Positions 15 to 63,960 of a stretch of DNA of 64,000 nt are shown in pieces. Both the position numbers and the translations under genes were made by a program. Source of the DNA: Heterotrichella gracilis. Its lineage: Eukaryota > Sar > Xanthophyceae > Tribonematales > Xanthonemataceae. Where the stretch lies: the NCBI GenBank assembly GCA_032358255.1, contig JAULBX010029599.1, forward strand, positions 1 through 64,000. Reading direction: 5' to 3'. Position 1 is the first letter of the stretch. Every line of letters begins with the position of its first letter. The notes beneath the pieces are model-generated. The model did not search any database. It was given only the letters and a program-made list of their open reading frames with translations, and was not told the origin of the DNA.

Positions 15-3000
15 GTGCTGGCGTGCGTCGCCCCCCCCGCAGTACCCACCGCACCACCACCACCTCTCTCCCCCTACACCTACACCCAACCCCAGACCAC
101 TGTCAGCGGTTGTCAGTGCGCAGCGGGGACCAACTGGGAATCTGTCACCCAGCCGGGGCTGTATTTCCAATCCCCGACTAACCAGTGCGTGCTCCCCGTG
201 CCCGAGATCCGCTGGCCCGTGTGCATCGTGAACACCTCGGTACCCTGCACAGGGTTTTCCCCAGTGGTCAGCAGGGACGGGACCACCTGGGACTACTGCT
301 TACCAGGTGAGTCAGCTCTGGAACCACAGTATTTGATGTTGTGAAACTGGTATACACCAGGCCTTCAGTGAAGACCTCTATTCAGGGTGTAACATGCAAT
401 TTGGAACCAGTCTTACTAGCAAGTACACCTGCGTGAACATCTTGGTGGTGCCATCAAGTGCAACCCACCCATGTTTCCATCCCCGGTACCCACCCAACCT
501 TGCAGCCATTCCATCCACGCACCCACCCACCACCCGCTACACATTCCACCCACCCCTCACCCCACCAACCCCTCCCCTGGCACAGTTGCGGCGCCCATCA
601 CCACCGTCAACAACTGCACGTGCCTGCAATCCTACTCAGTCACCGACATAACCACCCCGGGGACGACATATGCGCAATCGGGGCGATGCGTGCGCACACC
701 CTCCAGACCCAGCTGGTGCCCAATTGTAGCTGGCAGCTGCGCATCCCCAGTGGGCGGGGATTGGGACTACTGTCATGGTGCGTTCATTTGTGGGAGATGG
801 GAGGATTCCATGGGTTTGCCTGGCAATGTCAAGCAGATTACCTGGAAAGTAAAAAGCACCACCATTACAACTATTGAAGCCCACGTGGTATGTACAGTAC
901 TGATACACTGTTGGCAGTGATAATTGAACACACTGATGGGGATGGAGAGGGGAGATGTATCATTGCTTGGATCGGCCTAGCAGTGTCATGTGCACCTGAA
1001 GTTTCAAGCCGCTACCAGCATGAATCCTGTTGTGCACCCCACCAAATCCCAACCCACCATTGGTGGTGATGACCTCCTGTCGCAACTCCTTGTGTTTAAA
1101 AAAAAAACTAACCAGACACCCTTGTCCTGGACCCTAATTCTAACCCAGGCGGTGTGGCGCTGCAGAGGACAACGAGCTGTCGTGCACCTTGTCGCTGGAC
1201 ACGCGCGAGGGGTACACCGGCGGCCTCACATTTGAGGGGGGCACACAAGTGAAGTCTGGGTTCTTCAGGGTGGACTTCTCGCAGAATGTGAGTAGAATAT
1301 CAGGGTTTAAGATTCATGCTTACGCACAAAGTGCTCTAGGCTCCTGCCAAGGAGGCGCGGTGGTTCATGTCATGATGCACATGCGTAACCTTGCTCGCAA
1401 ATTTATGAGTCATGGCAGTAATTGTGTTTTCTCATTCTGTTGCATTTTGTTATAGTTTGTCGTTTTTGTTTCTTGATCCTTGCAATGCTGCAATGCCATG
1501 CACCCACATGCGGGCGCTGAGTGCACGGGTATCGCCGGAGGGACAGGTGAGTGCTTGCCAGTCCCTGCAGGCGGCAAATCGACGCAGTTGTCTCTCTTTA
1601 GATCTTTGGGCATGGGTGGCTGTCATTGTCAGGGCACCTTGTCTGGAGCATTTCCCTGTGCTACTATGGGTAATGGTGCAGCTCAGTAATGGTGCAGCTC
1701 ACTGAATGCCTGCTCCCTTCACCACGCCCCTGCAGCCCCAACGGCATTTCTCTTGAACACGTTATTCTCTATAAAACTTTTTTTTTGTTAACCTATTTTT
1801 CTTTTTGCAGCCCCGATGGCACTCCCAGCTCTTCCAGGTGAACGGCTCCTGCGCCTGCAAGAACCCCGACCGATCCCAGTGCGCCAAAACCATGGACGAC
1901 TCCGACATAATCATCCAAACCGATTACAAGAACAACACCCTCAGCTTGACAGTCAACGACCTGCTCAACATCTCGAGCTGCATCGGGAAGATGTGCGCGT
2001 TTGGGGGGAATGCGCTGTTCAACCAGTACACCCCCATGCCTGCCGGGGTGGACATTCTCACCGCGGACCGCCGCAAGGAGGGTGCGTGCATGCCCTAAAC
2101 CCTAAAGGTCAAGTGCTGGAAATGGTTGTGGCGCTGCCGCTGTAGTAAGGTTCTTATTACTGCAGCCCCCAAAACTGGCTTACCCCCCCCTGCCCTCAAC
2201 GGGGTAGCCCCTGGCACGTTGTTTCCACTTGCAGGTCACTTTCTTATCTATCCATCATATCCCTCCCTTGCAGCTCTGCGTATAACATGCCCCCTGCCCG
2301 TGTGGCAACCATGTAGCACCCCTCATTTCGTATTGCCTGCTTCCCGACCGCCCCTTTCTTGCTCTACTCCCTACTCCTGCACATCGCCGAATCACATGCC
2401 CCTCTATCCCACACATCAAATCTGCTGGCTCAGATTGCTCAGATCTCTTGAGCCCCATTCCCTCCCCTGCAGCTCCCCAAGTAACGTGCTCCCTGTGGTT
2501 GTGCCCAGTGCCACGTGGCAGCCAGCTGGCACCCGAGGCCCTGGCACAGGCATGCTCGGGGCCATTTAAGGGCACCTGGGCATATGGCCTGCCCCCCGTG
2601 GACATGAAATTGGACCTCTGGTCCCTGGTAAGGGCCTAGCCTTGCGTGCACAAACCCTGTCTCTTGCCTGCACCTGGCCGCAATCACACAAACCTGACCT
2701 CAGCCCCCCACCCCACCCATAAACCCTAAGCTCCACCTCTGCACCATGGTGCATCTTTATTATTAAGAAGTCTTACCTGCCCGCAGCTCCTGGCCACCTT
2801 TGCTGCCAACCCAGCAAACCCTCGTCCATAATCCCTATACCACAAACCCTAAACCCTAAACCCTCCCCGTAGCTCCTGGCCACCCAGCTGCAGTTGGCTC
2901 TAAACCTCAAACCGTAAACCCTACTCCTAAACCCTGAACCCTCCCCCGCAGCTCCTGGCCACCCAGCTGCAGTCTGCGCTGCTCAAGTGCGAGTGCAGCA

Positions 3001-6000
3001 ACATCGCCAGCTGTCGCGCAGAGGTGGGCAACACCACGCTGCGCTTCCACACTGCCCGCTTCCAGCAGGCAAGCACCGCGCTGGACAGCCCCATGGCGGT
3101 GTACTACATGAACAACGCAACAGGTAATGCCTCAAACGTTTGATGAGGATTTTCAGTACCGCTGTTAAGGAATGCGGCCGCTGGCGGTGTTGTCCATGAT
3201 TGATGCCACAGGTGAATGCTGGTGTTTGAATCATAGTCCTGCGGTTTAAGTTGTCCTCGGTGGCTGTACAAGTGAATAAAGGTGTTAAAAATGAACCCTG
3301 TGTTGGCACTGCTTATGCCATCTCTGCACTGGCAGTGTCAATGCAGCTAAATGGTCATGGTTTTAAATCATGTAACTCCACGCAGCACATCTCTTTCATT
3401 CCGTTCAAACCTGTTTGTTTTTTGGTGTGTGCGGCAGCCGGCGGGTGCTTGGGCAGCAGCTGCACCATAGCGACTGCATTCCATTGAAAACAACTGGATT
3501 TCGTAATTTTGGTAGCTGGTGCGTGGGCAGCAAATGCAGCATGGCCAGTGCTATATTCAAGTGCATAAAAATAATCGTGTGTTGTAAGTGCTTGCAATGT
3601 ATCGTATTGTACTTTTCACGGATGCAGGTAGCGGGTGCATGGGCAGCAGCTGCACCATGGCCATTGACAGGCTGCCACTTGGCGTGAAGCTGCAGGCGGG
3701 CACTGCGGTACTCACCATACAGGGGGCGCAGGTGCTGGGTGAGTGGGGGGGTGTGGCGGGTGTGGCGGGTGGTGCGGGTGGTGCGGGTGGTGTAGGGGGA
3801 ATGAATGCTTGTGTGTGTGCAGTGGGGAGGGCGTGCCACTCTAGGCACAGGCATTTGTAGGTGACACGTGGTTGTGCTGGTCTGTGGCATGTGTTGGTGT
3901 GTGTGGTCGGTTGTCAAACACTATCTAGGTTTTAGGGTTTAGTGTGGCAGCGGTGACCCTCTGCATCAGCTGGCATGAAGCCACGTCTCACGTAAAGCAA
4001 GGGCGCATGCACAATGAATGAACCAGTGGTAATCATAGATTCAATCACCCATGCATGATCACACTGCACTCCGATCAACATTCGAGTAAAATCTAATCCA
4101 GCATGGACCCTGTATGCAGAGGCCTTGGCGAGAAACATGCTGCCATCCCCTCCTGTGATCGCAACGCCAGCCCCACTGCCCCCACCCCAACAAACAAGGG
4201 CAGCGCCAGCGCCCGGGGACACCCCCGCCTTCCCAGGGGCCCGCACCCAGCCCCCACCATCAGGCAACGGAAGCGCACCCACACACCCTGCCCCATCAGG
4301 TGGGCTGCTGAATAAAGTACAAATAAGTTAATATTGACACATAGGATTTTGCCCTAATCGATGTGAAGTGTCAGGACAGGCCTGCCTGGTGCTGCATGCA
4401 TAGGGTTTGACTGCTAATCTTGCTTTTGAGCGGGAATGATTGTCCTTAGTTCCAGGACAGTTTGAACCCCTGACACTATATACATGTTAGGTGTTTCACA
4501 CTGGGCTGGAGAAAGGGACATGCATCGCCCTCAAAGGTTTTGAATCATGCGGATTTAATCAGAGAAATTTACTCTGAATGCCTGTTCAAGGATGTATACC
4601 GCTTTCTTTGCATGCATTGAGTGTTCATGCTGTTGACCCTTCCAGTCCTCGTCCCCTTGACCTGCATGTCTGAGGTCAAAGGTTCATGAGGTACCTATCT
4701 GGGATCACCTCCCCTGCCATCCTCGCAGGGGGCACAAGTTCACAGGGGGTCAAAGTGGTGCCCATTGCTGTCGTATCGGGGGTGGCTGTTGGCGCCATTG
4801 TGGCCACCACGTTGTTTGTCATCCTGCACCGCCGCCGCCGCCGCCGAAAATTCAAATCCCCAGCTTCCTCAAAGCCCTGTGATGGCGATGTTGAAACCCT
4901 GGGATGGGGCAGCCACCTGAGCCAGGACGGCTCTCATTGGGAATCTACAAATGGGAAAACGGGGGGGTCATCTGGCCTGTGGTCAAATGTTGCGGAAATG
5001 GAGACCCCCGAACCCCCCCTGCCCCTCAGCCCTGAGGACTGCTCGGAGTACGATTGGGCCATGCGGGCGGAGGAGGTGGAAATCTGCAAGAAAAGCAACG
5101 GGGAGGACGTCGTGCTGGGCAGTGGGGCGTTTGGCAAGGTGAGCCATCCTGGCTAGGGTTTGATAAGGTGCCACCCTAGCTAGGGTTTGGCTGGGTGCCG
5201 CATTGGATTCCCACCCAGCCATGCTATTTAGTGGGACATGCGGGCGATGCCCTTTCCTCAAAATCGTCTTCCTTTACCACTGACACAACTGTCCATAGGC
5301 ATGCATCACAGGTGCTCATAGCCGCACCCCTCCCGCTCCACCCACCTGCAACCTACCTCACAGCCTACACATGCTGCCGACCCGATATACAAGGCTGCAG
5401 GGGTGGGGCGCAGTCCTTGTCAAGGTCGCCTGCTTTCTGAACCCTAAAACCCTAATACTTGAACTGGCTGCACCCCCCTTGATTCAGGTGTACAAGGCCC
5501 AGTGGCGGGGGGCGGTGTATGTGGCGGTCAAGGTCATCGACGCGGGGGTGGTGGAGAGGGAAATGGGGGCGCAGGACCGGGCCGCGGTCGTGCGCGAGAT
5601 ATCCATCCTGCAGTCCTGCCGCTCGCCCCACGTGGTTCAGTTCCTTGGGGCGTGCCTGGAGCCACACCGTATCATGGTGGTCACTGAGATGATGGCGGGT
5701 GGGTGGCGGTGGTGGGAGGGGGGAGGGGTGATGGTGAGGATGGTGAATGGTGGTGGTGGTGTTTAGTGCAAGGGGATGGTGGGGGTGTTGAATGACATGA
5801 ATTCAACAGGCGATTGCGTTCCTACCGCTTGCCCCACGTGGTTCAGTTCCTTGGGGCATGCCTGGAGCCGCACCGCATCATGGTGGTCACTGAGATGATG
5901 GCGGGTGGGTGGCGGTGGTGGGGTGGTGGTGGGATGGTGGTAGTGGTGGTGGTGTGTGAAGGAAGAGTCAGGGATGGTGGTGCATATTATCTCCATCCTG

Positions 6001-9000
6001 CATTTTTTCCGTTCCCCGCATGTTCTTGGAGCGTGCCTGCAGTTACACCGCATTATGGTGGTCACTGAGATGATGGCGGGTGGTTTGACATGGTGACTGA
6101 GATGATGGCCTTTAGGGTTTAGGGTTCAGATTTCCACACCAGGGTTAAACCCTCATCATTCTTGCCCCACAGGGGGGGACCTGCACACCGCGCTGGGCAG
6201 GCGCACCGTCAACTGGTACACCCGGGGCCTGCGCATCTCCCTGGACACCGCCCAGGGCCTGTACTACCTCCACCAGCGGGGCGTGCTGCACCTGGACGTG
6301 AAGAGCGCAAACATACTGCTCACGAGCCACGGGGCAGCCAAGGTTGCTGACGTGGGTTTGGCGCATATTCTGCAGTCGGCCAGCTATAAGGCGGTGCTGC
6401 CTGGGAATACCGGGCAGCTGAAGGGGACGTGGGCGTGGATGGCGCCGGAAGTGATCACAGGTGGGGGGGGGTGGTCTAAGCACGCGCGATTGCGGTGTCT
6501 GGCAATTTGGAAGAGGATAGAATATTGGGGGGAATCTGTACAATTCAGTTCAAGGCAACCGTTGCAGAATGCCGGCGTATGACGCAGGCATTTTTGAGGG
6601 GGTTGTTGCCAGTTCTCGGTGGGATTGGCATGGACAGCGGTGGGCATCTTGCAGGCAATGAGTGCATGGCCGTGAGGTTACCTGGAAACGCAGGGCACAT
6701 ATGTCACTTGGAAATGCATGGCATTTTGCAGTCCCACCTCACTCATCACCCCAGCAGGCTGACCACCCCCTCCAATGCTGACCCACACACCTAGTGGCAT
6801 AATTGCTTGAACATTGCCCCCCTCCAATCCGTTTCCACCCCGGGAGGCCCTAATGTCGCACCAAAAGCTGGCATGTACAGCCACAGCGTGGGGCTGGAGT
6901 ACAAACCCTAGAGCTGGCACAGGGTTAGGGTTTTGCTAGGGTTTACCAGCTCCTTTATTCCCCTTCACGGACAGGCCCCAGCATCACGCCCAAGGCCGAT
7001 GTGTACAGCTTCGGCGTAGTCTTGAGGGAGATCGCTTGCATATTATGTTTTACACACACCGCCGGCCATCCACAGCGGCACTGTGCAACTCTGTTGCCAT
7101 GCGGTAGTAAGGGTTTAATTTGCAGTTGCAGTCAACCTAAACTACATCCCCATTGCCGCAGGCCCCAGCATCACCCCCAAGGCCGATGTGTACAGCTTTG
7201 GGGTGGTCCTTTGGGAGATCGCAACGGGTGAGGCGCCGCAGCGCAACAGGCTGCGTCATGTGAAGGTCCCGGAGGAGTGCCCTGCTGAGGTGGCAACCCT
7301 GATCCACAGGTAAAAGACTGCATTTTCCAAGTTAGAGTGGATGGGTACCTGGGTGGCGGGTTGCCTGGTGGCGCGGGGGGGTGTGGTTTTGGGGGTGCAG
7401 TGGGGCATGTGGGTGGGAGGTTGCTGCTGGCACGGTGCCGCCGCAAGTGGCTGAGGCACATGCAGGTAGTGATTCATAATTCGACCGACTTGGAGAGTTG
7501 GGTCCGAATTATTCGGAATTTATAGGTTTTATGGAAATCGCCAAAGTATTCGGTGAAGTCGAAGTGGAATTTTATTGACATCCCCAAAAAGGCGTTATAT
7601 TATACTCCCCTTGTGCAACATCCTACAAATGATACATTCAGGGGCATGGAACAGGGGCATGGGCGTGGGCATGATGTAGGTGCCGGGGGCTTGCCCTGCT
7701 GAGGTGGCGGCCCCCACTGTGAAACAAATTAGGGTTTCGGGTTTTGCAGCATGGCACTGCGGGGAAATGGATGTGCTGCCTGGTGGGCCGGTGGGGGATG
7801 TGGCCTGTGGAGTTCAGCGCACCACTGAGGTGGCAGATTTCATGCACAGGGGGTGTTAGGCAGCACAGGCTGGTCGCTGCATTGCCATAGTGTTGGGTGG
7901 ATGCGTTGCCATAATGGTAGAGGCGCATGAGGGAAGACCAATTTGGCTAGACTCCAAGGCTGGCGCCCCTCATGCTGCCTCAAGCAAAGCCATCATTCTC
8001 GAGACGAGGCGCATACCCCTTTTCTTGCCTTTGTCTGAAGTATGGTAGACATGCTCACACTCCTTCCAGGGGGTCTAAAATAGTGCTATTATAGTCCCCC
8101 TGCCCTTTCCCAACGTTCACCCCCATCGTCACTATAGAACCCCTTGCTCACCGCACTTTCCAATCCCTGCAGGTGCAGCGTTCCCATCCCCAAGGAGCGC
8201 CCGGGGATGCAGGAGGTGATAGAAGTCCTGCGCAAGCTCAACGGGTCTGCCAAGACGAAGCCTGTGCCATCCGCACTTCCAGAGGTAGGATGTGCGCATG
8301 TCCACATGTTGGTACGGGGTGATTGCATGCATGTATCATGCACATCGCACTCACGCCAGCTCTTCATATGCATCTTTCTTGCTAGTAGAACGCCAACAAT
8401 GATTGATTCCTGGGCATCTTTCCAAGCGCTCACTATCCCGGGTTGTATAATGTACCCCTAGCCTGCGTAGCACGACCTCCCTTGGGTGCATCACCCCTAT
8501 TCTCCCCTTGGCGCAGGCTGCAGCGGGTGGTGGGGAGGGCACTGCAGCTGCAAGGGAGGAAGCGGGGAAGCAGTTTGCGGGGTGGCCGGGGCTGGGTGCA
8601 ATGGGGATGGCACTGGGGAAGGGAGCCGACACAGCAGCTGAAGGTGAGGAATGGGGGCAGGGGTTGCGATTATACAGCAGGCAAGTGTTAACAACAGAGA
8701 TGTACCTAATGGTGTGCGCCATGTTTGGAGCTGTGCAAGAGCATCCCATGTCATGCTGCCTCCTCCTTGCCATTTGTCACTGCCTCAAGTGTGTTTCTAC
8801 ATTCCCGCTCAGGTGCTCCGGAGCCCCAGGGGTTGAATATCATCGGAGGTGCCTCCCCTCCAACCCCCAAAAGCGCTGCGGTCCCCATCCCTCGACGGAC
8901 ACTGCCCAGCACTTCGCTAGCCAGGTCACCTTTCCAACATAGTCCATTTGCCCGCCCACCCCCGGTGGCAGTCTGGGGCAGGAGCCCTGTAAACCCTTCT

Positions 9001-11861: not shown

Positions 11862-14800
11862 TCAGTAGCGAGAGGCAGCAGACGCCACCTCAGCCGGCGC
11901 CACCCAGTCAGACACCTGCGCCAGGGGGGAAACAATATCCTCCCCAAGCTTGCGGCGCACGACCACCACCTTGGATGATGCGCCTGCATCTGTGTTTGAA
12001 TCCATTGCTCCCACACTGGTTGACATGGCGCTGACCTTCACCTGCAGGGGTCACATGCTTATTTGCTAAAAATTTTGCAACTAAATGGGACCAAATGAGC
12101 CCATTTTGTGCCATGCTTTTTGCTATCTGGCCTTTTCCACTTTTTCATAAGTCGGTTATTTTTAGGGATTTTGCTAGATGCAACCACTGCTCACCTGGCG
12201 CTTGGCTGGGTATGTGGGTCCCTCAAAGAGGTTGAAAGCTGAGGATGCTCCTAGGATGCCATCGGTCACCTCGTAGTCTGACTGGCTGCTGCCCTCAAGC
12301 ACGTGGCTGCCGTTCACAACCTGACATGGATGTACATAGTTAATTAGTCATATGCACTGCACTTGCAGTATGCATTGCAGCAATGCAGCCAGTCAGCCTA
12401 GTATGCCGTACGCCAACCAATCCTATCCAGGCAAGGTTGCAGTATTTAGGGGGAAGAACATTAACAAAGGATCTAAATGCTCTGTGGGCAACTTGTGGTA
12501 CTGCAAGTTTTACCAACGCTCAAACAGCAAGAATGCAAGCCAAACTTGTCTACAACAGCCTGATATACGCATGCGTGCGCGATTTCTGGTAGCAGTGTGT
12601 GCGGCATAGATTGTGGAGTGGAGGCAAGCGTTGTTTGTACCAGCCCATTAGGCAAGTCTCATGGTTGAGTGAAATAACCTGGGGTAAGTAATGCTGATGG
12701 GTTACCCTAATCCACCATCAGCATTGAATTTCGCCATTGCCAAAGGTCATATTGTCCCAACCTTTGGCGCCACGCCCTTTCCGCCCCTCCATGTCTGCCC
12801 CACAATGCCATGGGGGTCAGGGAATGCCAGGGTGAGCAGGTTGATGCCAATATCTAGCCAGGGCTCGCCGGAGGCTGCGAGGGGCACACAAACAAATGTA
12901 TCACGAAATGCAACCACGTAAATCGCTGGCGGCTACGACAAGCACACATATGAAATAGGAACGCAACAATACGATATGTTGATGCTAGGACTTTGGCAGT
13001 GAGCAGTGCAACGCCCCAAACCCTGCACTAGGGCACTGGCACTGCACCTGTGAATACCGTAAACCCTAGGCTAGGGGGTCATTTCCCCACATGTGGACAC
13101 CGAGAGCGAGCAGCATGCCCACCCCAAACCCTGCATTAGGGCAATGGCACCGCATCTGTAAACACCATAAACCCTAGTATAGGGCATTGCTCCCGCACCT
13201 GTGAACACCGAGAGTGACATGTCCTTGGTCATGAGCACCACAGTGGCGCCGGGGCCTCCCTTGGGGTGTGTGGCCTCCAGCCTTGCCATGACACCTGGTC
13301 CCATGCGGTAGGTGGCACCGGGCTGCATTACTGGAACCACGTCAATGTCCTCCTTGCCAGCCAGGGACACTGCAGCCAAAAATAATAACAATCCGTAATT
13401 ACTAATAAGCATTATAAAATTACAACTATACCATCCTACAAAGGAACCACCTTGAGGACGATAAGTGTGTCAGGTGGGGTCATTGCCATCTACATGCAGG
13501 CATGGGTATGGGTTGCAGTTCACCCTAAATCCTAAGACTAATGCAGCCATTGATTGATTGGTTGATTTGGTGCATTTTATTTTCTTTTGGCAAGGGCGAG
13601 TGACAGTTTGCGGCTGGGCCAATACGAGGGTTACACATTCCGTGCACCAATTGTAGGTCTCGGGTACAGACACGGCCATTAGGCTGAGGTGATGGACCAG
13701 GCAGGACCATGTGTACGGCCCTCCGGCTGTTCTGATAACAACTGCAAAGGGCTCAGGGTTGGTTCAGGGCATGTCAACCCTGTACAGTGTAGGTCTGTGG
13801 CAAGGCAGCATGATCATGCATGCAAAGTTTCCCCGCATCAAAGAGGTTAGGGTTGGTTTAGGGTTCAGGGCGAGGCAACTCTGTAGGGTTTACAGCGTAA
13901 GGTCTGTGGCAAGGCAGCATGATCATACATGCAAGGCTGCTAAGGCTGCCCCCGCACCTGTGAGTGTGCCGTTGCCTGCCCCCAGGCCCACCACCAGTGC
14001 TGCCTTCTCAGTCATGAAGCCCACCCTGGTCATATAATTGTTGACCACGCGGGTGTTGCCCAGGTTGGAGAAGTGCGCGTTGACCTGCACGCGCGCCAAG
14101 GGGTTAGGGTTTGGTTGATCGAGAAGGCCTGCAGGGTTTGGCTGGGAGTGGGTGTCTGCCAGGCCTACCAGGCTCCGAGCCTTATGTGAGTGCCCAACTG
14201 CTGAAGGTGGTTGAGGGCGGTTGTGCCAAAGGACAGGCCACTTGCAGAGGAGGTGAACTGCTGTGTAGAATTTAGGATTTCCCAAAGGTTAAGCCACTTG
14301 CATGAGGTGAGTAGTTGTGTAGGGTGAGGCTTTTCATAGGACACGCTACTTGGAGGAGGTGGGCTACTGCTGGCTAAGCATGTTGAGCAACCTCCTGCAG
14401 CGTTCCAAGATCTTTCTGCCTTCGTGCATACGCGTGTGTCAGGCATGCCCCCCGCAGCTGCGCAGCTGCGGGGGCAAATTCTCATCTGAGGTAATCTGAG
14501 GCCGGGTTGCTACAGGCTTCTACTAGAAGTTCTAGCCAGTTCCCGCCCCTATGTTGCAGCAGCAAGGTGTGCGGGCAGCCTCCACGGCAATGTGGTGGGC
14601 ACTCAGCCCAGTACTGGTACAAGCCCTACACCCACGCACCCCACCTGGTACTTCTTGGCACTCAGCACGTTGAACACCGCGTCTGGGTATCCCTCAAAGT
14701 CGTACCAGGCACCGCCAAAGCCGCGGAAGTGCGGGTCAGCCACAGCGCAGGAGCCTGCGGAGTGTTAGGTGACAAGGTGAACAATGTGGAATAACACAAA

Positions 14801-17091: not shown

Positions 17092-20000
17092 ATGGCGTGG
17101 TTCACGGGGGGAGGTCAGGAGCCAACCTGCGAATACCCAGCGTTGACGCTGTGGCAGCAGCATGGTTCGCGTGCTGTGGGGTTGGGGTGCGAAGCCTTGC
17201 ACCTCACCCGCACAGAGTGCGAAGGTGTCAAGGAGACCCTGGGCGTGGGGGGAACCGCCTGCGACGTGCAGCCCTGGCATAGTTCCGTGCTTATCGCCAC
17301 CAGCTGCCTCATCGTGACGTGGTTGTTGTGGTGGGTGACGAAGGCTTTGGCGAGGTGAGGACAGGGGTTATCGTGTCAGGGTGTGTTGTCAGCAATGCAT
17401 GCATATGGACGGCACCTTTGGGAAAACCTATTCAGATACGCCAACCTGGGATGCGGTTGTCGAACCCAGTATAATATCCGAAACCCACATAAACCCATCT
17501 GCTCCAAGTATTCGTGGCTTCATTTTGCACCCAACCCAGGGACAGCCCAGCACATGGCCAGACTAACCAATACCTGCACACATCACTGCATGCACCATGG
17601 CACCCATGACGCTACTCAACTTCTTCTTAGGGGGTAGAAATCCTGCCAGGCTTGTGCCAGTGGTGGCGGCTGAATGCATGGCTGGCAACCCTAAACCCTA
17701 ACCCAAAACCCTAAACCCAGTTGTCCCTCCACGTTTTGCACAGGTGCACCATGGTGGAAGCCCGCAAGACCAGAAGCATGATGGAGGGGCAACCTCCAGG
17801 CAAATCTTAACCCCAACCCAAACCCTTAACCCCAGTGGTTCCACTTCTGCTCGAGTGGCGGAAGCCCCACCAGGCCAGTGGTGGCAACTTCCCGCGTGGC
17901 AGGCAATACTTAAGTCTAATCCAAAATCCTACACCCAATTGCGGACCCACCACCACTACAGGTGGTGGAGAGCCCGGCAGGGCAGTGCCATGCTGGTGCG
18001 CAAGCAGCTGGCCAAACTGAACCCTAAGAACTACCCTAAACCCTAAACCCTACCCCAAACCCTAAACCCAACTGTTTTATCCAATTTTGCGCAGGTGGTG
18101 GAGGAACCGCCAGGGCAGCGCCATGGTAGCCACCGCCACGCTGGTGCGCAAGCAGCTGGCCAAGCTGAACCCTACAGACTACCCTGAAACCCCGCACAGC
18201 TGGGTGGCGCACGGTAACGCCCTGCTGCCTGGCCCCGTGCTCTGCGCGGTGTGCTTCAGGGGTTTTGATGACAGGAGCGAGCGGCTCAAGGTGTGGCGTA
18301 CTGTACCCTCCCCCCAGGAAATGATAGAAATAATTGGTTATTGGCAACCTGAGCCTCAATTCCGGACCCATTGCATGCCTCGCACTACACTTGCAGAGTG
18401 CAGGTGTGCCCATCACGATCTGGCAGTGGCTGGGCGTGTGAATGCCAACCGGTGGATGCATTTTGCACGAGGCATTTATGCCGCATGTACCTGTTATTGC
18501 ATGCTTGTACCTGTACTTGCAAATGTTGCTGTATCTTTTGTCATTATCAGGTGTAGCTATGCAGTCATCATCCTGCATGTTTTCAACTCAGCTCCGGCGA
18601 TTCACCATCAATGGTGCATGCGTTGCAAACCGCAATTCCACATGGTATCCTACCAGTCACTGCATTCCATGTAAAGCACCACACACTGCCGACCGCAGCT
18701 GACACCCGCAGACACTGACTCCACTCCCCACCTTGTAATCCGCCTCCAGATGCCATGTAGCATGCTTCGTGATTGCGTGCGCAGCACCCCACACATCCAA
18801 GGAGATTATCACTCACCACCCTTGCTCACGCCCTTGAACCCAACGCATCACACCCCATTAACCGCACCAGACACACCCCAGATACTTTAAACAACAACTC
18901 TTGCAAGTGACCCACGCACTGACCTCACTCCCCACCCCACAGTCCGCCTCTAGCTGCGATGTGTGTGGGTGCGTGGTCCACCAGCGCTGCGTGCGCCGCG
19001 CCCCTCCCAGCTGCAAGCCTGTGTGCGTAGCCTCCCAGACCCTAAACCATTTCTGGCAGCCAGTGGGGACTACGGTGGAGGACGAGGAGGTGGGTAGGGG
19101 GAGGGGGGAAGGGGGTTTGTGGGGATTGGTGTGGTGGGTGGTGTCAGTCGGGCATTGCGCTGGGGACCACTGCTGGCAGCCGGTGGGGACCACTGTGAAA
19201 GACGAGGAGGTGGTGTGAAGGAAATGAAATATTTACGTCAAAAAGGACATAAATGTCTGAAAATGAGAGGGAGAACTAAAAAGTAATTGAAAACTCATAT
19301 CAATGAATGGTGCTAACAATTGCAAGGAGGCAGTCAGCAAAACAAAAGTTTGCACTGCCTGTTGGTGAGCAGCCGCATGGCATCTCCCCACTGCCATTCC
19401 CAAACCGCGCCCCCGACCGTTCCCCTGTCGGAGCTGGGCGCGGAGCAGTGCCTGTGTGCCTTTACTGCCGCGAGCCTTGTGGTCCCTGTGGTTCAATGCA
19501 TCAGCACAACCATGGTAACCCCCTGTCTCCTATCCACACTGACCTACTCCCGAGCCACATGGGTGCCGCCATTACCCCCACTCTCCACCACCCATCGCCC
19601 CCCCCCTCCCCTTTCCCCCCACTCGCAGCTGTCGGAGCTAGGTGGGGGTGCAGTGCCCGTGTGCCTCTACTGCCGCGAGCCCTGCGGGGCCGACATGTTT
19701 GCAGTGGAGCCCCTGTGGCGCTGCTGCTGGTGCAGGGGCCTGGCGCACGTGCACTGCCACCTGCACACCCACCCGCTGCTGGCGGCAAGGTGCAGGAAGC
19801 TGGTGGGGGGCGGGGGGGCGGCGGAGGGGGGGCGGGAGGGGGCCAAGGGGGGCAGGTACGTGGAGGTGCATTCGAATGATTGCCTCAGTCCCAGCTCTGG
19901 CATTTACCATTGCTTTTCTCGTGGACATTATGGGCAGGCAGTGTGGCGGGAAAGAGCCGGTACAGAGTGGCGGGAAAGAGCCTGTAAGCACCTTTTATTA

Positions 20001-27794: not shown

Positions 27795-27809
27795 AATTGC
27801 CTGTCAGCT

Positions 27810-38384: not shown

Positions 38385-39060
38385 CTCGTTTTGACCTCCA
38401 CCCTGGCACTTCTCCCTTACTGATGCAAACCAAAAGGACTGGTTCGTTGGCTGTGCGTGGAAAAATTGGCTAAGTGAGAACAAGACCACCCCTTCAAAAG
38501 CAGCTGCCACTGCCAATGGCACTGGAGCTCCTGCCTGCAAGGAAGTTGATGCCTATCCTGGTATTCACGGTATTATGCCCCCTTGTGACAACCTCGCCAT
38601 TGTGGAGAAACGTTCCAACCAGGGAGTGGGAGTACTCCTTTGGGTTACCAATGCTTAAAATCGTAGCTAAGCTGGTGGTATGTTATCTGCTGTCAACAAC
38701 TCAAGAGAAGTAGGCCTAGGGTAACCAAGAATTCTCAGTGATCCTTGTTTATGTCTCAATCTTTTGCATCAACTATCACAGTACCTGGATTGACTTCTTC
38801 AAAGTGTGGTGAGCAGTACGATGCATTCCATCCAAAATTGAACATAAAATAAAAATACTGAAGCATTTGCATCATGCAGCTGTCCTGTGCAGGCACGTCC
38901 ACTGGCAACGCCATTGAAAAAAGCAAAACATTTCAGCCTGAGGGCTGATTGACCAATGCATAGCCCTCAAGTACAATGAGTACTCATCCCTTACAGGTAC
39001 AGAGGTGGGACCAGAGATGGGACCAGAGGGGGTATGGGCTGCTGAAGGGGCATGGCGTGA
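38385..39060. promoter_or_regulatory. Upstream region of AUG4, downstream of the SGNH gene
   Basis: These 676 bases lie between two minus-strand genes. They should contain the SGNH 3' UTR and the AUG4 promoter. No recognised motif. Confidence 0.4.
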
Positions 39061-49875: not shown

Positions 49876-50656
49876 ATGGCGGAGGGTGATTTCTACGTGA
49901 GGTACTACGTGGGGCACAAGGGCAAGTTTGGGCACGAGTTTCTGGAGTTTGAGTTTCGCCCAGATGGAAAGGTGCGCATGCATGCATATGATGGGTCACA
50001 ACAGTGCACAGACCGCGGAGCCCAGCTTGGTAGCCTCCACTCACTGTCAAAATTTTAATTGATTGACGCTGCACTCGGTGCAGATGCGATATGCAAACAA
50101 CTCCAACTACAAGAACGACACCATGATCAGGAAGGAGTGCTTTGTCAGCCAGGCAGTGCTGGACGACCTGAAGAGAATCATCGAGGACAGCGAGGTGATT
50201 CAGTGGCAAGGGTGTCGGTTGCTTTTTCTGCATGGGCTCCCAGCTGCCAGCTGTTGACTGGGCTCCACCTTGCTTACGCCCATTGCGTGCCTTGCAGATA
50301 TTGAAAGAAGATGACAACAACTGGCCACCACCGGACAGAGTGGGCAGGCAGGAGCTGGAGGTGATAATGGGCAACGAGCACATATCCTTTACAACCACAA
50401 AGCTGGGCTCGCTATTGCAAGTGCAACAGAGCAAGGACCCAGAGGGCCTTCGGATATTCTACTACCTTGTCCAGGTGCGAAGATGCCTTTTTGGTTCTCT
50501 TAAAAGTGTGGTCAGGGCAAACGCCTCACGCACGTCCAGCTTGTGCAGGAGCTCTGCATATATATTAAAACGTTGCATTGTTGTTTGCAGGATTTGAAGT
50601 GCCTGGTGTTCTCACTCACAAGCGCCCACTTCAAGATCCAGCCTATCCAAAGGTAG
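49876..50656 (+). CDS. MAGO: Mago nashi, exon junction complex core subunit
   Basis: Four phase-consistent exons (49876-49971, 50084-50194, 50298-50474 and 50591-50656) encode 149 residues, the usual length of this nearly invariant family. Start [20 protein letters not shown], then [46 protein letters not shown] and the end [12 protein letters not shown]. The one visible substitution is MRYANN, where LRYANN is commoner. It forms a heterodimer with Y14 that locks eIF4AIII onto spliced mRNA upstream of exon junctions. The start is fixed by the conserved [11 protein letters not shown]-type beginning. Confidence 0.98.
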
Positions 50657-55546: not shown

Positions 55547-55580
55547 GGTCGCTCCGCTATGAAATGCTGCCCAAAAACCT

Positions 55581-58500
55581 ATGTGTGTGCGCGCTCTGCC
55601 GCCAGATGTGAGCTTTGTGACGACACCACAGACACTGAAACTGGTTGACGTGGTGTTCCGAACAAACGGCGCTTGGCAACGTCACAACAGTGACAGCAGG
55701 TACGGTGTGGGTGGGCAAAGGGGTGGGCACATGCGTATGCATGCATATGCTCCTGGCTGCTAAGGTCGTTTCATCAAGGGGCTTGGTCCTGGTACACATA
55801 CAACACCGTACAGTTTGACCACTGTGTATGCAAAAGTCTGTCTCTTGTACATTGTGTCTTGACGCACAATGGTCTCCTGTCTTCTACTAGAAATTCTAGA
55901 GGAGGACAGTCCTTCAGCTGCCTATCGATAAGCCACCGACCCCCGCTTATGGCGGCACAGCTATGCCACCGTCGTCTGCATGCATACAGCAAAAGTCTCT
56001 GTCAGTCATAAAGGTTACTAAAACCCCGTTTCTGGCTTGTTTGTCAGAGCTTCACCGTCACGTATGCGAACTGCAGCAAACTGCCCAGCGCATGCATGCA
56101 TGTGCAACCACGTTTTAAATATACACGTTAAGATGATCAGCAGCCTCTGCCAACGGTAGCGTTTGTCAAGCTCCGCTCTCCTCTTACATCATACTCATTG
56201 CAACGCCGACTCACGACTGAGCCCGTACTGTTGTGAACTAGCCAGCTGCTGTAATGCACTGCTCCCAGAACTTGTGCCACAGCATGCGTGCCAGATAGCA
56301 ACTGACCTCAAGGTCTTCATGGACCAAGAAGAGGAAAGCACCTCCTTTGAAACGGCGGCCTTCAGGTATGCCTGCACATGCACGGCTTGTACATGTATGT
56401 ATCTGACTGTCACGCTGTGAACTGAAGCTTCAACAACCTGTTTCATCCAGCGTTGTAACCCTGAACACTTCACCCAACCCCTCTCACACCCAACCATGCC
56501 ACTGTGCTGTTTAGCGTGCTCCACTTCAAGCGCACCTGTGTCACGCTCAACGCTAGGCTACACCAGGAGGTGGAAGAATACAGCAACCGGCAGGTAAGAG
56601 CAGTGCCTGCGTTGTGCCCAAAAAACGTGCCAGCACAAAAGGGCTTGTCCAGTTCAGCCCAGGTCATTGGTAGCCACTCCACCCCATGGTTTGTCGGTGC
56701 AAGCAGGCACTGCAAATTGCACAGTCAGGCTCTGTATCAGCAACAACAACATGCAAGGCCACGCTCACCGGGCACAGTGGCAGCGCATTATATTGTGGGC
56801 TGACCCAGCAGCAAGGGCATGGCAGGCCTGTGCTGACGCGGCATGGTGGTGGTGCCGTGCAGGGTGAGGTGGACGTGTCGGACCTGCGCAAACCGCTGCC
56901 GGCTGAGCAACTGCAGGCGCTGGCAGCACAGGGTGCAAGGGGGGCCGCCGCAACGCAAGGTGAGTACCCTAAACCCTGGACCCAGGATGTGCTGTGTGCA
57001 TGAGGGATGGGACATGGGGGCAGTGGTGGTGGATGCATGTGGCGGTGATGGGGGGGTTGGCAGGGACGATGGCAGTGGCAAACCTTCTTAGTGGTGGTGC
57101 ACGGGAGGCAAAGGTTGCAGCACTGCAATGTGAGCACCTGTAATACTGTACTGCGCCACACGCACCCAGGGTAAAAGCCAAAAATGGGGCGACAAATGTA
57201 AGGCAAAAAGGGGAACTGATGACAGGAGGACTTCAATATATCACTGATATATTAAAGTCCTCCTGCTGATGAATGAAATATACCCAGGATGTGTGCTGGA
57301 TTGCAGGCACAGCTACTTCTCCCAAGAGCAAGAAGCGCAAAAAGGGCAACAAAGCAGCCACCACAACAGCAGCCACAGCTGCGCACCTGAATGCAACCGA
57401 TGCACAGCTTTCATCACAGTTGGGCACAGCAGCTCCAGTGGAGGCGCATGCCGCCAATGGCTTTGTCCGCCTGTTGGCAGACCCTGGTGCGGAGCTTGAT
57501 GTCACATTTGCACCAGCAAGTGTGCCTCTGGGACGGCATTCATTGGCGGGAGATATGCCTGGCAGCCTTCCAAACCTAATGAGGGAGAGCGACCAGCCGA
57601 TTCCAGCCCCTGCAAGCACCCACTCCCTACGGAAGGCACAGGGCAGCCGTCCAGCTGCAGGCTTAGGCAACAAGCGACCAGCAACACAAACAGACGCCAG
57701 GCCCCCAGCAGCCAGCCATTCCGCCCTCCTCAGCAGCTCAAGTGACATGCCCTCCTTTTTATCTCCCACGATCACAAGGTCCCCCAGCCAGGAGCAGCCA
57801 GGTGGCAGTCATACAATTAGCCAACTAGTGCCTCGGGGGCGCCGAGCTGTACCACATGCACAGGCACTTAACCACCCCCCAAACGGACCCAGTGCCGCGC
57901 TCCCCTCCACCACATGTGACACATCAGCACCCACAGGCCTGGGCGCACATGCTGCGGGTGAGCAACATGGTGCAGGCGTCCCCATGTCTGACCAGCACCA
58001 GCAGGCGCGCAGCGATGTGCAGCGGCTGAAGCAGCAGTGGGAGAGCGAGCTGAAGGAGGCGGCAAAGGTGGGGCCTTTATTGTAAAGAAGGTGGCAAAAT
58101 CTGTGGGTGTAGGGAGCATTTGTCGACCACTGACTGCAAAAGAGACAGCAAATATTTGTAGACAGCCATCGACACAATGGGCGTTTTTAACAATATATAA
58201 CATAATTGCACAACGCTACAGATATCTAACGTCATATATCTAACGTTTTCCATTGTTACCTATAAGATATCGTACATTATAGATAAAACGTCTCAGCATG
58301 CTATATAAACGTCCGGGCCTGGGTATATGACGTGCGCTATATTGAAATGTAAGTTTCTCCCCTGCTGTGCAGCACCTGACCAGTGTCAAAGTGGCCTTGG
58401 AGCGCACCAAGCAGCTCACCCACCACCCCTCCTCCGGCTGCCTCACCTGGAAGGCTCCTGCCAGCGCCGCGCAAGGGGATGACGCGGAACCAAAAATGGA

Positions 58501-60337
58501 TGCAGGGGGGGAAACCGTGCCCTGCGCACCCTGCGCACCACCACCACCCTCCACCAGCAATTTGAGTGGCGGTGGCGCGGAGGGGTTGTGTGTTGCGCCT
58601 GACGAGGTGGTGCTGCATGTGGTGGTGCATGCGAGCAACTCCAAGAAGGTCCTTCAGGTGAGCGGGGTGTGCAGGGTTGTGCACAGTAATTGTTTGTTTG
58701 ATGGACAAGCCAAGGCTCTTGGACTGGGGTGAGGCATACCCATAATGCTAACTCGGCTTCACAGCTGGAATGCACTCAGTTGCATGTACTGCTCCGGGGG
58801 CAGGCAAGTGGAGGACAAGACACATGAAGCATTTCACTATGATCTCATGCCTAGCTTGCATAGCTCCTTCACCCACAACGTGCAGGCCTGGAAAATCATC
58901 CCATCCTTTCCGCTCCTCACCCACCACCACCCTTCCCTCGCATTGCAGGAGTTCCAAGTGCTGGGCAGCCAGAGGCTGACCCAAATGGTGGATCTAGTGG
59001 AGTGCGCCTCAGAGGCCAACCTGAGGGCGCTCAATCTGGCAGTGCCATCCTCATTCCTGTACATCGAGGGCACTTTTCATAACGACATGCGCAGCCCCGA
59101 GGCCATCAATTACTCGGATGCCATCCGGGACTTCCTGCGGGATCACCACATGCAGCCAGTCTGCCCTGCGGGTGGCCCAGGTGGGTGGCGCTATATCCTG
59201 ATCCAGAAACGCTCCGTTTTGGTAGTGCATGGGGTGTGGCATGGAGCCTGGTGTGAATCAACCAAAATTTGTATACTTCTTGTGCATGTGCAATGTGTGG
59301 TCCCTCAGATAGTACTAGGGAGGTGGGAGGATGCCTGCACTTTAGACACGCGAGGGCTTGTTGAACCCTGGACCCTATTCACGGTCAGCCTGCTGTCTGC
59401 GTGGGCTTGTTTTACGTCTGCACTTTGAACAGGGTGCTGGATGCGAGTGCATTGTGTAGCTTTGCCCTGTACCGTGCCCTAAGCAGGGTTTTGCGTGTTG
59501 CAGGCGGCCAGATGCGTGTGGGCACTTCCAGCTGCCGCATGGAGGACACTTGCTTTGACCAGCTGTGGATCAGGCTAGGGCAGGACACAGGCTACGTGTA
59601 CGTGCACCAGGTGAGATGGGGTGATAAGGGGTCATGATCCTAACCCTAAATTTTAAGCCCTAAGCAGACATGCACCAGACGAGGGGAGAGGGTAAGGGGC
59701 CATGGTTGACGGGCCGTGACCCTAAATTCCAAACCCTACGCAGACTGGGCATAATGAACCATATGAGGAAGGGAGGGCAAGTGGGTGGTGGTCAGCAGTA
59801 CGCGTGTGCTGGGAGATGAGAGGGTCTTAAATCTGAAGTGCACCAGTAGACATGTGGTCACATTATTGTATGGAGGCAGGAGGGCAGGCGAGGCCGAGCC
59901 GAATCCAGTATGACCTGCAGTACCACTGATCCTGACTCTGAAACCTTAAACCCTAAACCCTCAGAATGCAGCGCCTGCCGGCGCTGACCCCGAAGCTGTA
60001 AACTTGCGCCACTGGCTCCGACCCTACGACCCTAAAACCCTACCTCCCCCAGGGCTGCTGCGAGCACCGCATCCACTTCAGGGAGGTGCGCCAGGTGCAC
60101 CCCAACGACCCCCACCTCACCACCGCCTACCCCCTGCGCAAACACACCGCCCGCAAGGCCATCAGGCGCTGCTACATCTGTGAGACAGAGTCTGCAGCCA
60201 AGGTGACCTATAATGACGCCAACGCGCCCGAGAGCCCCTGCTTCTGGTGTGAGGATTGCTACCAGCGGATGCACTATGATGCGGATGGCAGGCTGCTGGA
60301 TGCGGGGTTCCAGGTGTTCCCCTACCACTTTGAGTGA
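55581..60337 (+). CDS. SNAPC3: snRNA-activating protein complex subunit 3 (SNAPC3/SRD2)
   Basis: Firm exons, all in phase, are 56515-56593, 56863-56959, 57307-58067, 58373-58657, 58949-59180, 59504-59610 and 60053-60337. Upstream, an exon ending at 56365 (KVFMDQEEESTSFETAAF) and a first exon 55581-55699 (start MCVRALPPDVSF) are tentative. The SNAPC3 core is EFQVLGSQRLTQMVDL, SFLYIEGTFHNDMRSPEAIN, DQLWIRLGQDTGYVYVHQ, CEHRIHFREVRQVHPND and the Cys/His zinc region RRCYICETESAAKVTYNDA, SPCFWCEDCYQRMHYDADG, ending QVFPYHFE. It binds the proximal element of snRNA promoters (RNA polymerase II and III). A long Ser/Pro/Ala-rich insert fills exon 57307-58067. The gap to the divergent HO2-like start is only 34 bases if the first exon is right. 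Confidence 0.88.
57223..57265. repeat. 43-bp near-perfect palindrome in a SNAPC3 intron
   Basis: Arms of 21 bases (starting caggaggactt, returning aagtcctcctg) have one mismatch and a one-base centre. It ends 41 bases before the acceptor of exon 57307. Confidence 0.85.
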
Positions 60338-61078: not shown

Positions 61079-63593
61079 ATGGCTGTAACGGAGGCCAGTA
61101 AGCAGTATTGCAGCACCAAGTCACATCGAGAGCACCAGGCGAAGATGAGAGGTCGTCGAGAGCGCCGGTCTGCGCCCAACACTCCTCGGCGGCCCGAAGG
61201 CGCGCAGCGGCGACCGCTCACCCAATCGAAACTGGTCATGATTATAGCGGCCACAGCGTTGCTGGTGGTGATTGCCTACAGTGCAGGTGTGGGGCATCTC
61301 AAACCTTGTCGTAGCATATTGTGGCTGCCTTTTGCACTGCATGAGGGTGCTTGTGCCAAAGTGTACAAGCTGAAAGAAACGTTGCAACCACGCGAGTAGA
61401 CATCCCTTGCAGCTGCAGCTAGCAAGTTCCGAAGCTAGCCTGTTCCCAGCGTGTCCTGCAGCTCACTCCACCAACACTGAGAACTTGGAGGAATTGGGCA
61501 CCACTTCCAAACCATCTTGATACTCCTAACGGGAACAGCTGGTTGCCAACGCCTTTGTTGTTCCAGCATATGTTTCACCTCCCCCAATCTATTGTGGTGT
61601 CATGGCAGGTCTGCTGGGGAAAGTGGCAGCGCAATCCAAGGCGCGCAGGCAGATCACAGTGATGATGCGCCTCCACAAGTACGCCCTGCCACCCAGCTCC
61701 CCCCTTGCACTACAACACATGTTGTGCGGTGCCCCATGACTGATACCCTTGCGAGCACACTGCACGCGGGAGCGCTGCTTGAACTCCTTAACAAACTTGC
61801 ACTTAATGGTGCAAGCACTCCAGAAGTACAACCCACAGCCCTAAGGCAATCTAACACGAATACCACTCCACATGGCACCCGCCCTGTCCTGTCCTGCCCA
61901 GCGCAATGTCCAACATCCCCCTTGCAAGTTACGGTGCACGCCCACGGCGCCACCACGCTGCACTCGGCCAACAACCCCCCCACCCGTTCCACCCCTTGGA
62001 ACGCCACCTGCCCCTGTTGGACCCCCCCAGCGCATACACCCACACAGGGCCTGGAGTCGCTTTCCCAACCCCAAAACCCTAACCCAACTGGTTCCTTGCC
62101 CGCCAAGTGTAAGACCCCTCCTCTGCCGCAGGGAGAAGTTCCTGGAGTCACGGCCTGAACCCTAGAACCCTTAACCCTAATACCCTCATTCCATTTGATA
62201 CTTGCCTGCTTAGGGAGAGGAAGTTCCTGGAGTCACGGCCTGCAATCTAAAACCCTAAAACCCTAAAGCCTAATTCCTGCCTGCCGCAGGGAGAGGAAGT
62301 TCCTGGAGTCGCGGCGGGCCAAGGAAAGCCTCCAAGGGGTGGTATCCGCGCAGCGCCGCACCTCGGTGACCACCAGGTGCTCCGAAACATGCACCGCCGC
62401 GGGCAACGGGGTGTGCGAGGACGGGCGGGGCAACCATAGTGCCGCGGTGCTGTGCGATCTGGGCACCGACTGCGCCGACTGCGGGTCGTACACCTACGGC
62501 GCGCCTGCGGACTACCGGGGCATGCCCTTCATTGAGCACCCCATACAGACGCTGGCCTTGAACCAGGTGAGAAATACGGGAGGAGAAACAGGGGGGGGAG
62601 GGGGGGACAGGGGAGGGGGGAGTCCCCGTGCAAGGCCTGGGAGTTGGCACCCTCAGGGTTGCAACAAATGCCAGCATGGTGTTCACGCTGCACTCACACA
62701 AGCTCAGCCACACTCGTGGATGCCGAGTCAGCATCAGTGCGCGCGCACCACGGAGCAGCATCAACCTGGCGGTGTGGGGCATTGCCAAGTGCCATGGACA
62801 CAGACCAGATGCCCATGGTCACATGTGCACGATCTTAGGTGCATGATCGCATGTGGATGATCACATGTGCATGATCTTGGGGTGCACAAGCGCATGCGAA
62901 TGCACATAAAGTTGCAGGCGTTGCACACGTGTATACCGTGTATTGCAATGCCCCGTGCCAGCAGCTGCCACCCCCACCCCGGTTCACATGCGATTTTGCA
63001 CATGCGATCGTGCACCCCAAGATCATGCTCATGTGGGTAACGTGGATTGGGGGGGTAATGTGACCCAGGCTGCACACGACAAGGATGTGCTTATTTACTA
63101 ACATTAGTATTATAAGTGTACCCCTGACATGGTGTACTGGCCGACTCGCCCCCTGCACGGCCACCGTTGCCCCCCTGCGGGCGATACCCATTGCTCCTGA
63201 ACCACGCCCCAATCGTCCAGCACCAACCAACCCTGATGACCCTGTGCATATCCACGTCAGTCTGCAAAGACTGTCCCACCGGAGCTACTCCACCCCCGCC
63301 ACCACCGCCGCCACCACCCACCCCACCCACCCCCACACCCCACCGCAGGTGGAGGTCCGGCTGCGCACCACCACCACGCCCATCCCCTTCAAGTTCGCCT
63401 ACACCTCCCCCCAAGTGGACCCCCAGGTCAGCGGCCAAGTGGATCAATCCGGAGCCCTAGACCCCGGCATGACCCCCGTATGGGACCGGATCCTCAAGGG
63501 GTGTGTGGACAGCCGGGGGCACCGCAAGCTTGTGCTGGATGTGGGGGCCTACTTTGGCTATTACTCGCTGCTGGCGGCCAGCTATGGATGCAG
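61079..63593 (+). CDS. Membrane-anchored FkbM-type methyltransferase, 3' end outside window
   Basis: Four exons join in phase (61079-61286, 61609-61678, 62290-62566 and 63349-63593), giving 266 residues before the window ends. The basic N-terminus is followed by one membrane segment (LVMIIAATALLVVIAYSAG, about residues 52-70), a type II topology as in Golgi enzymes. A Cys-rich module follows: CSETCTAAGNGVCEDG, then CDLGTDCADCG. The catalytic start is GHRKLVLDVGAYFGYYSLLA, the motif I SAM-binding loop of FkbM-family methyltransferases, which methylate glycan or other hydroxyl groups. Downstream exons would carry the rest. The donor at 63593 is followed by several decayed copies of the motif I exon end. 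Substrate unknown; a surface-glycan methyltransferase is inference. Confidence 0.78.
62130..62275 (+). repeat. Two echo copies of the third FkbM-gene exon start
   Basis: The real acceptor and start at 62281-62310 (gcagggagaggaagttcctg) recurs at about 62127-62157 and 62213-62245, each followed by GGAGTCACGGCCTG. CCCTAAAACCC-type motifs separate the copies. Confidence 0.85.
62850..63040. repeat. Inverted repeat in an FkbM-gene intron
   Basis: The stretch catgatcttggggtgcac near 62869 is mirrored by gtgcaccccaagatcatg near 63010-63027, with flanking CACATG/CATGTG extending the arms to about 30 bases and about 110 bases between them. A third related copy (cacgatcttaggtgcatgat) lies near 62826. 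Confidence 0.75.
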
Positions 63594-63602
63594 GTACACC
63601 CT

Positions 63603-63960
63603 ACAACCCTACAACCCTGAACCCTACATGAACTTTGGCTGCTATGCGCTGCTGGCGGCCAGCTACGGGTGCAGGTGCGGTGGTTTTGTGTGTGGGGGGG
63701 GAGGGGGGGAACCAAAACCTTTGTTGGGGTTTGGGGGATATGTGCTGCTGGCAATCAGCTTGAGGTGCAGGTGCAAAATGCTGTGAGTTTGGCAGGGTTT
63801 TGGTGGGTTCTGGGTAGATGTGGGGGCATGCTTTGATACTGCTTGCAGCCAGCTATGGGTGCAGATGCGGCATTATGGGGTTGTGATGGGGGTAAGGGAG
63901 GGTTCTGGTAGGTTTTGGGTACCCTTGCTGCTGGCTGCCAGCTAAAGATGCAGCTGCAGA
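63603..63960 (+). repeat. Four echo copies of the FkbM SAM-motif exon end
   Basis: The end of exon 63349-63593 encodes YFGYYSLLAASYGC. Copies follow at about 63630-63677 (closest), 63733-63776, 63815-63873 and 63918-63955. All carry the GCTGCTGGC...CAGCT core with decreasing fidelity and keep a possible donor (GCAGGTGC and the like). Confidence 0.85.

Follow-up and report, generated by a model that had tools for sequence, protein, structure and literature searches.

Small tandem duplications left at repaired DNA breaks are the closest described counterparts of the structures reported here. These structures, termed exon-edge echoes, are decayed copies of the end or start of an exon, usually with its splice site, that lie in the neighbouring intron. 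They were found in a 64,000-nucleotide (nt) stretch of Heterotrichella gracilis (assembly GCA_032358255.1, contig JAULBX010029599.1, here C706:1-64000 and called the window), which belongs to a 68.5-Mb genome in 903 contigs. Each mechanistic step considered below is known elsewhere. Nick-pair duplications have reportedly been studied in rice and Arabidopsis.

Small tandem duplications arise at breaks when CST and Pol-alpha-primase, which also act at telomeres, fill in the ends and end joining follows (Schimmel et al. 2021, PMC8355091). As in the window, the products are direct tandem copies of short segments, formed in that case at breaks with overlapping 3' ends. However, the system consists of induced breaks in mouse and human cells, its insertions are under 100 bp whereas the offsets here have a median of 117, and the paper's abstract and introduction mention neither exon edges, intron growth nor telomeric filler. 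Interstitial telomeric insertions at repaired breaks are described in rodents and primates (Nergadze et al. 2007, PMC2246262). They share with the present introns the short internal telomere repeats, and are sometimes accompanied by target duplications and by break bases in repeat register. Deletion was the commonest outcome there (65/130 and 13/25 loci) and duplication a minority (6/130 and 4/25). In H. gracilis, by contrast, the repeats are enriched in introns; their density rises close to splice sites, and introns with long duplications carry more than their share.

Two further systems concern introns themselves. In Daphnia, staggered breaks are held to drive both intron gain and intron growth, with direct intron repeats as break footprints and a trend to longer introns (PMC4202315). 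New introns are made there and the exon-linked repeats measure 4-12 bp, whereas the echoes span tens of bp, mostly hold an existing splice site and carry no clear sign of birth. In the potato RdRp gene, a tandem duplication crosses an intron-exon boundary at the acceptor edge (PMC4974935). That is one case, with the new intron confirmed by RNA reads, while the present material holds 46 edge clusters in 264 kb and the extra copy has apparently been left in the intron. The initial annotation of the window, made from its letters alone, knew of no named system matching the echoes; this was too strong, as published examples exist of small tandem duplication and of telomeric insertion at breaks, and also of a duplication that crosses an intron-exon boundary. 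Among the entries listed by searches of an open-access library, there was no report of exon-edge duplications combined with telomere repeats in introns.

Echoes as Local Direct Repeats

The window was analysed together with C46:1-200000, an independent 200-kb piece of the same genome chosen for its size, echoes playing no part in the choice. Exons and introns in both pieces were labelled by a self-trained hidden Markov model gene finder (40 genes in the last training round), which gave 386 introns with a predicted consensus of CAG|GTGAG-type donors and TGCAG|G acceptors. Self-comparison for direct repeats within 600 bp, grouped into clusters and controlled by inverted repeats and one dinucleotide shuffle, yielded 20 direct clusters against one inverted in the window (no pairs in the shuffle) and 37 against two in C46 (none in the shuffle). 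The resulting 57 direct against three inverted clusters in 264 kb have the same-strand, short-distance arrangement of small tandem duplications. The offset between copies has a median of 117 nt, the middle half lying at 92-188 (91 pairs).

Introns were also compared with their flanking exons over the 264 kb in a 60-mer scan (score of at least 30) of the 350 introns that remain from the 386 once those below 110 nt are set aside. Within the adjacent intron, a match to the opening 60 nt of the downstream exon occurred in 26/350 cases and a match to the closing 60 nt of the upstream exon in 9/350. Controls gave next to nothing: 1/350 for exon starts and 0/350 for exon ends in reverse-complemented introns, 0-1/349 and 0/349 in introns of other genes (two draws), and 0/260 for exon interiors 70-130 nt from the edge. 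The echoes that the annotation had listed are present in the kinase, DGK, LIN1 (OCRE), HEAT-type and FkbM-type genes and more weakly near 13 kb, and they occur, as it had said, on both strands and at both exon edges. The 37 clusters of C46 extend the same pattern beyond the window.

An assembly artefact is unlikely: it would yield near-identical copies, whereas most of the aligned copies share 70-95% identity and are spread over many separate genes. Regarding a transposon or RNA element, there was no Rfam match in the window and no common element by eye; no transposon library was searched.

Concentration at Exon Edges

After removal of a coding ARM-repeat block at 25-27 kb, the 19 remaining window clusters comprise 14 edge, four intron-intron, no intergenic and one exon-exon cluster; the 37 of C46 comprise 32, three, none and two, respectively. 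Both pieces together thus contain 46 edge clusters, 7/56 intron-intron clusters and 0/56 wholly intergenic ones, and the last figure says that the duplication process favours genes. In four of the 32 edge clusters of C46 an exon is matched by predicted intergenic DNA, and one of the four also has an intergenic-intergenic pair. Under a stricter rule, one copy must lie in an exon that measures at least 90 nt and extends at least 30 nt beyond the copy, and the other copy must be less than 20% exon; this leaves 13/19 window and 25/37 C46 clusters, and several of those excluded look like edges mis-called by the gene finder. When the gene labels of C46 were shifted circularly, the 28 clusters touching a splice site compared with 16.0 +/- 2.8 in the shifted data (maximum 25 in 500 shifts); in the window, 14 were seen against 8.2 +/- 2.1 (maximum 14). 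The exon parts of the echoes are short, at most 40 nt in 18/24, which hints at the edges themselves, depending on the assumptions made.

Decay of the Copies

Mismatch between exon and echo over all exon-echo columns is 0.111 at codon position 1, 0.121 at position 2 and 0.178 at position 3, with 0.116 for positions 1 and 2 combined, and it reaches 0.193 in the intron parts of the same alignments. This pattern shows one constrained exon facing one freely drifting echo. Among acceptor-echo copies, 32/37 begin within 12 nt of the exon start, and the AG is in place in 22 of these 32 (one could not be assessed); among donor-echo copies, 10/15 reach to within 12 nt of the edge, with GT in 7/10. Such frequencies are far above the 5-7% expected by chance, so the splice sites were copied with the exon sequence. 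Retention of AG is nevertheless indistinguishable from the 78% expected under neutral decay (P = 0.20). Most of the echoes are dead copies, tandem duplications that have made introns longer.

The initial annotation further held that copies nearer the real exon are generally more faithful. The kinase and FkbM-type arrays follow this order, but as a rule it fails: in a tally that excludes these two arrays, the copy nearest to the exon is the best in five of 11 cases with at least two copies on one side. An age order along arrays was therefore dropped as a generality.

Telomere Repeats in Introns

The telomere repeats of this genome are of the TTTAGGG type, and a link between the echoes and CCCTAAA/TTTAGGG repeats in introns, absent from the initial annotation, emerged from the analysis. 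Telomere 7-mers cover 1.4-1.8% of intron sequence in sense and 0.7-0.9% in antisense orientation, compared with 0.16-0.25% of intergenic DNA in C46, 0.40-0.58% of that in the window, and 0.04-0.39% of exons. Shuffled introns reach 0.23-0.25%, and the best of 133 composition-matched words 0.45%, so that the sense coverage of introns is 6-7 times that of shuffled introns. All 18 window tracts of at least 11 nt carry intron labels. Genome-wide, there are 5,629 exact copies of the 14-mer CCCTAAACCCTAAA, chromosome-end arrays included, against five of the reversed pattern. Like interstitial telomeric insertions, then, the telomere-type repeats occur at non-terminal positions above chance. The genome encodes telomerase and Ku domains.

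The repeats are concentrated near splice sites and near echoes. Their density peaks at 20-60 nt from splice sites. Near acceptors, sense repeats cover 4.2% of positions at 20-40 nt and 2.2% at 40-60 nt, against 0.9-1.8% deeper in the intron; at 20-40 nt from donors the two polarities cover 2.8% and 2.3%. Introns overlapping a local repeat are 4-5 times denser in sense repeats than others (4.3% versus 0.93%; antisense, 1.5% versus 0.67%), and coverage is 7.0% in the spacers between an echo and the real acceptor, where other introns have 1.6% over their final 100 nt. The tracts are also oriented. Among 70 intron tracts of at least 11 nt, those within 60 nt of an acceptor number 22 in CCCTAAA sense and three in TTTAGGG sense, against nine and 15 near donors (P = 0.0003, for tracts that are not fully independent). 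Genome-wide, TGCAGG lies 5-35 nt downstream of 381 CCCTAAA-sense tracts versus 218 of the opposite polarity, about 208 being expected from local hexamer frequency. CAGGTG lies upstream of 312 TTTAGGG-sense versus 265 CCCTAAA-sense tracts, about 170 being expected, and this donor-side polarity is weak (P = 0.055); a control hexamer gave 28 seen and 28 expected. These hexamers are commoner in genes, and part of the excess therefore merely restates that the tracts lie in genes.

Individual loci were also read by eye. At C46:133192-133411 an acceptor edge is duplicated and telomere repeats occupy the junction. Of eight loci picked for a perfect telomere 23-mer (L001-L008), L004 (an 87-nt copy, 94% identical) and L001 are likewise edge duplications with telomere repeats at the junction, L002 is a telomeric insertion within an intron with a direct repeat of about 26 nt on both flanks, and L003, L006, L007 and L008 carry TTTAGGG-sense tracts past a donor; L005 had nothing of note. 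Candidate break bases in register with the repeat, read by eye, are CCCT, shared in L004, and AACC at C46:140150.

A Probable Break-Repair Origin

We consider it probable that the repair of breaks near exon edges has repeatedly produced small tandem duplications, and that the echoes are what remains of these, decaying neutrally. Repeated local duplication as a habit of repair was one of two origins offered in the initial annotation, and it fits copies that are direct, concentrated at edges and neutrally decaying. The event we infer would begin with a break that has overlapping single-stranded ends near an exon edge. Fill-in of both ends would produce two copies of the segment, typically a unit of about 80-200 bp with the splice site inside. 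Telomerase-type synthesis, or another source of filler, might sometimes add CCCTAAA/TTTAGGG repeats before end joining would seal the two copies together. As the exon retains one working edge, the other copy and the filler would join the intron, and introns would thereby lengthen at their ends. The preference for edges may have either of two reasons: breaks could hit genic DNA near exons, with only the edge-spanning events surviving selection, or the edge itself could be a hotspot.

Several points weigh against a break-repair origin. The duplications are read from one genome. All exon and intron labels are ab initio predictions, and some echoes are mis-called as exons. The candidate contigs from which C46 was chosen all carry a telomere 23-mer, and the choice may slightly raise telomere counts. 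The test for an edge hotspot hinges on the length of filler assumed (P = 0.0008, 0.015 and 0.26 for 0, 20 and 40 nt). A telomere 7-mer is present in just 11/26 acceptor spacers and 6/9 donor spacers; with many spacers lacking it, telomeric filler is not general. Intron 60-mers beginning 20 nt past the donor, which adjoin the edge and hold no exon sequence, recur in 11/277, and duplication is therefore not confined to units with exon sequence. Finally, acceptor echoes exceed donor echoes about three to one (26 versus 9, P = 0.006), an excess for which we have no account.

More tentatively, the edge might be a true hotspot of break repair, at which the intron-side end is extended by telomere repeats and rejoined, duplicating the edge. 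Introns could then grow by repeated telomere-seeded edge duplications, with the polarity of the repeats set by the extended end (TTTAGGG after donors, CCCTAAA before acceptors). We regard this as possible but doubtful, and the observed polarity fits extension of the intron-side end and selection by splicing equally well.

Alternative Explanations

Selection by splicing is the first alternative. It would retain tandem copies and telomere repeats because CCCTAAA offers a branch point and a pyrimidine-rich stretch before the acceptor, or because TTTAGGG offers G-runs after the donor. The orientation of intron tracts near acceptors and donors and the genome-wide bias near TGCAGG are as such selection would have them. 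It does not by itself generate exon copies, however; the splice sites of echoes are not kept above the neutral expectation, many echoes are without telomere repeats, and the donor-side polarity across the genome is weak. As an account of its own it seems unlikely, although selection and break repair could act together.

It is also rather unlikely that small tandem duplication is uniform along the genome and that edges stand out only because exons stay readable. Edge pairs do remain visible longer, since exons change slowly, while intron-intron copies decay twice as fast. Intron-intron clusters do exist (7/56), near-donor intron 60-mers recur, and decay is neutral, all of which such a process would produce. 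The bias was simulated with uniform duplications under the same decay and a similar score threshold. The expectation was 32-33% edge, 38-39% intron-intron and 28-30% intergenic clusters (32/38/30 for C46), against the 32, three and none seen in C46 and the 46, seven and none in both pieces. The edge excess over the simulation has P = 3.8e-13 for C46 and 9.3e-16 for both pieces, and it persists when the four clusters that pair an exon with intergenic DNA are reclassed (28 and 42 edges; P = 8.3e-9 and 8e-12). The lack of intergenic clusters in C46 alone has P = 4.6e-6 under the uniform model. Moreover, telomere tracts, which can be detected without exon conservation, are also denser near splice sites. 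Detection bias alone is thus insufficient for the edge excess.

A function for the echoes as tandem alternative exons, either mutually exclusive or with alternative edges, is improbable and was rejected as a general account by the codon-position and domain tests. A few copies, in the kinase gene, keep sense and splice sites, and splice sites are often intact. Against this, the first two codon positions change less than the third, as they would for one constrained and one free copy, and AG retention does not rise above neutral. Inclusion of the echo lowers the domain score in both genes tested: the kinase domain scores 181.2 bits in one Pfam stretch with a single copy and 171.6 bits in two stretches with the echo, and the DGK accessory domain scores 176.5 bits without and 166.7 with it. 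Codon rates and the domain scores in the two genes thus gave no protein-level constraint on both copies, as mutually exclusive exons would have. The earlier claim that the real exon is used once stands for the kinase and DGK genes, the two to which Pfam was applied.

The other origin offered in the initial annotation, in which a new intron is born when an AGGT-bearing exon segment is duplicated, is highly improbable: the CAG|G consensus is present on both sides, but no clear sign of birth was seen, as in-register similarity between donor and acceptor, or copying of the opposite flanking exon in register at intron ends as in AGGT duplication or staggered-break gain, is close to chance, with a small excess (5/386 introns at a score of at least 10 versus 1.05 expected), and the two strongest of the five lie in echo arrays and were judged gene-model errors.

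Intron Growth

Most of the echoes examined hold an already existing splice site (AG in 22/32), which argues that introns are growing here, not being born. The 57 of 386 introns that overlap a local repeat have a median length of 357 nt, versus 276 nt for the others. Transposons and random indels are the usual explanation for how and where introns lengthen; in this genome, one still legible process seems to add sequence at intron ends. Its telomere signature links part of it to repair. It also duplicates splice sites, and whenever one is copied, a possible decoy is set beside the authentic site. With 46 edge clusters in 264 kb, the rate, age and mechanism of such a process would be open to direct measurement.

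Echo Loci in the Window

The loci below lie on the plus strand unless the minus strand is given. In the kinase gene, two echoes derive from the last ~90 nt of exon 5488-5698 and the donor that follows (GT at 5699), one at 5815-5904 with the donor GT copied at 5905 and a 71-nt core 96% identical, the other at 6025-6079 with GT copied at 6080 and followed by a TTTAGGG tract at 6111-6126. The start of exon 7162-7309 is echoed at 6972-7035 with the acceptor AG included (real copy 7159-7222, 89%), and part of its end at 7670-7708 (real 7257-7294). At lower coordinates, the acceptor and first 22 nt of exon 2952-3123 recur at 2848-2894, with CCCTAAA repeats at 2844-2864, and the start of exon 3628-3786 recurs twice within 3441-3550 (3441-3471 and 3511-3550). 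On the minus strand, the donor edge of predicted exon 13199-13369 is echoed at 13014-13109 (82% to its repeat partner at 13122-13217).

In the DGK gene, an array of decayed echoes of the start of exon 18095-18290 occupies 17656-18043, with telomere-type repeats between units, and the predicted exon 17836-17961 inside it is probably a gene-model error. Exon 18943-19089 is echoed at both edges, its acceptor edge at 18713-18758 (real 18917-18962, 78%) and its donor edge at 19166-19213 (real 19046-19093). The starts of exons 19629-19855 and 22551-22768 recur at 19425-19482 and 22372-22421, and the end of exon 22964-23104 at 23233-23293 (real 23030-23090), an echo whose omission raises the DAGK_acc score.

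In the LIN1 (OCRE) gene, on the minus strand, the acceptor edge of exon 29883-30206 is echoed at 30264-30310 (real 30179-30224). The HEAT-type gene carries four tandem units at 43063-43313, each an exon-like end with a CCAG|GTGCC donor and with telomere-type repeats between them; the array was classed as intron-intron, since the gene model does not resolve the real exon end. The acceptor edge of exon 62290-62566 is echoed twice at 62123-62239, and telomere-type repeats (62250-62267) separate these echoes from the real edge. In the FkbM-type gene, an exon end near 63593 is echoed three times within 63632-63955 (63632-63676, 63730-63774 and 63911-63955); GT is intact in the first two and lost in the third.

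Outside the window, C23:72994-73249 contains three tandem donor-like units at 112-bp spacing with TTTAGGG repeats after each, likely a further donor-echo array. C46:64053-64199 and 81397-81535 are edge duplications whose filler is non-telomeric (AT-rich or unrelated).

Other Genes in the Window

Eight of the 12 window models were scanned against Pfam. Six matched (kinase, DGK, OCRE, Mpv17, GDSL/HAUS4 and SNAPC3), and among these eight proteins the two models at 61.6-64 kb and 11-17 kb were without a match. The names HEAT, FkbM and root cap are those of the initial annotation, and the HEAT-type model lay outside the scan. A gene at 25039-26842 on the minus strand contains in-frame 126-nt (42-codon) coding repeats, which we take to be ARM-like; no direct repeats in the window are stronger, and they have no relation to the echoes. 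A single model at 36619-41547, also on the minus strand, joins a weak GDSL-lipase match below the Pfam cut-off to a HAUS4 match and probably represents two genes. The small gene at 49876-50656 on the plus strand is presumably related to mago nashi, of the exon junction complex core, which it resembles. At 56319-60337 on the plus strand lies a SNAPC3-type gene with a strong Pfam match.

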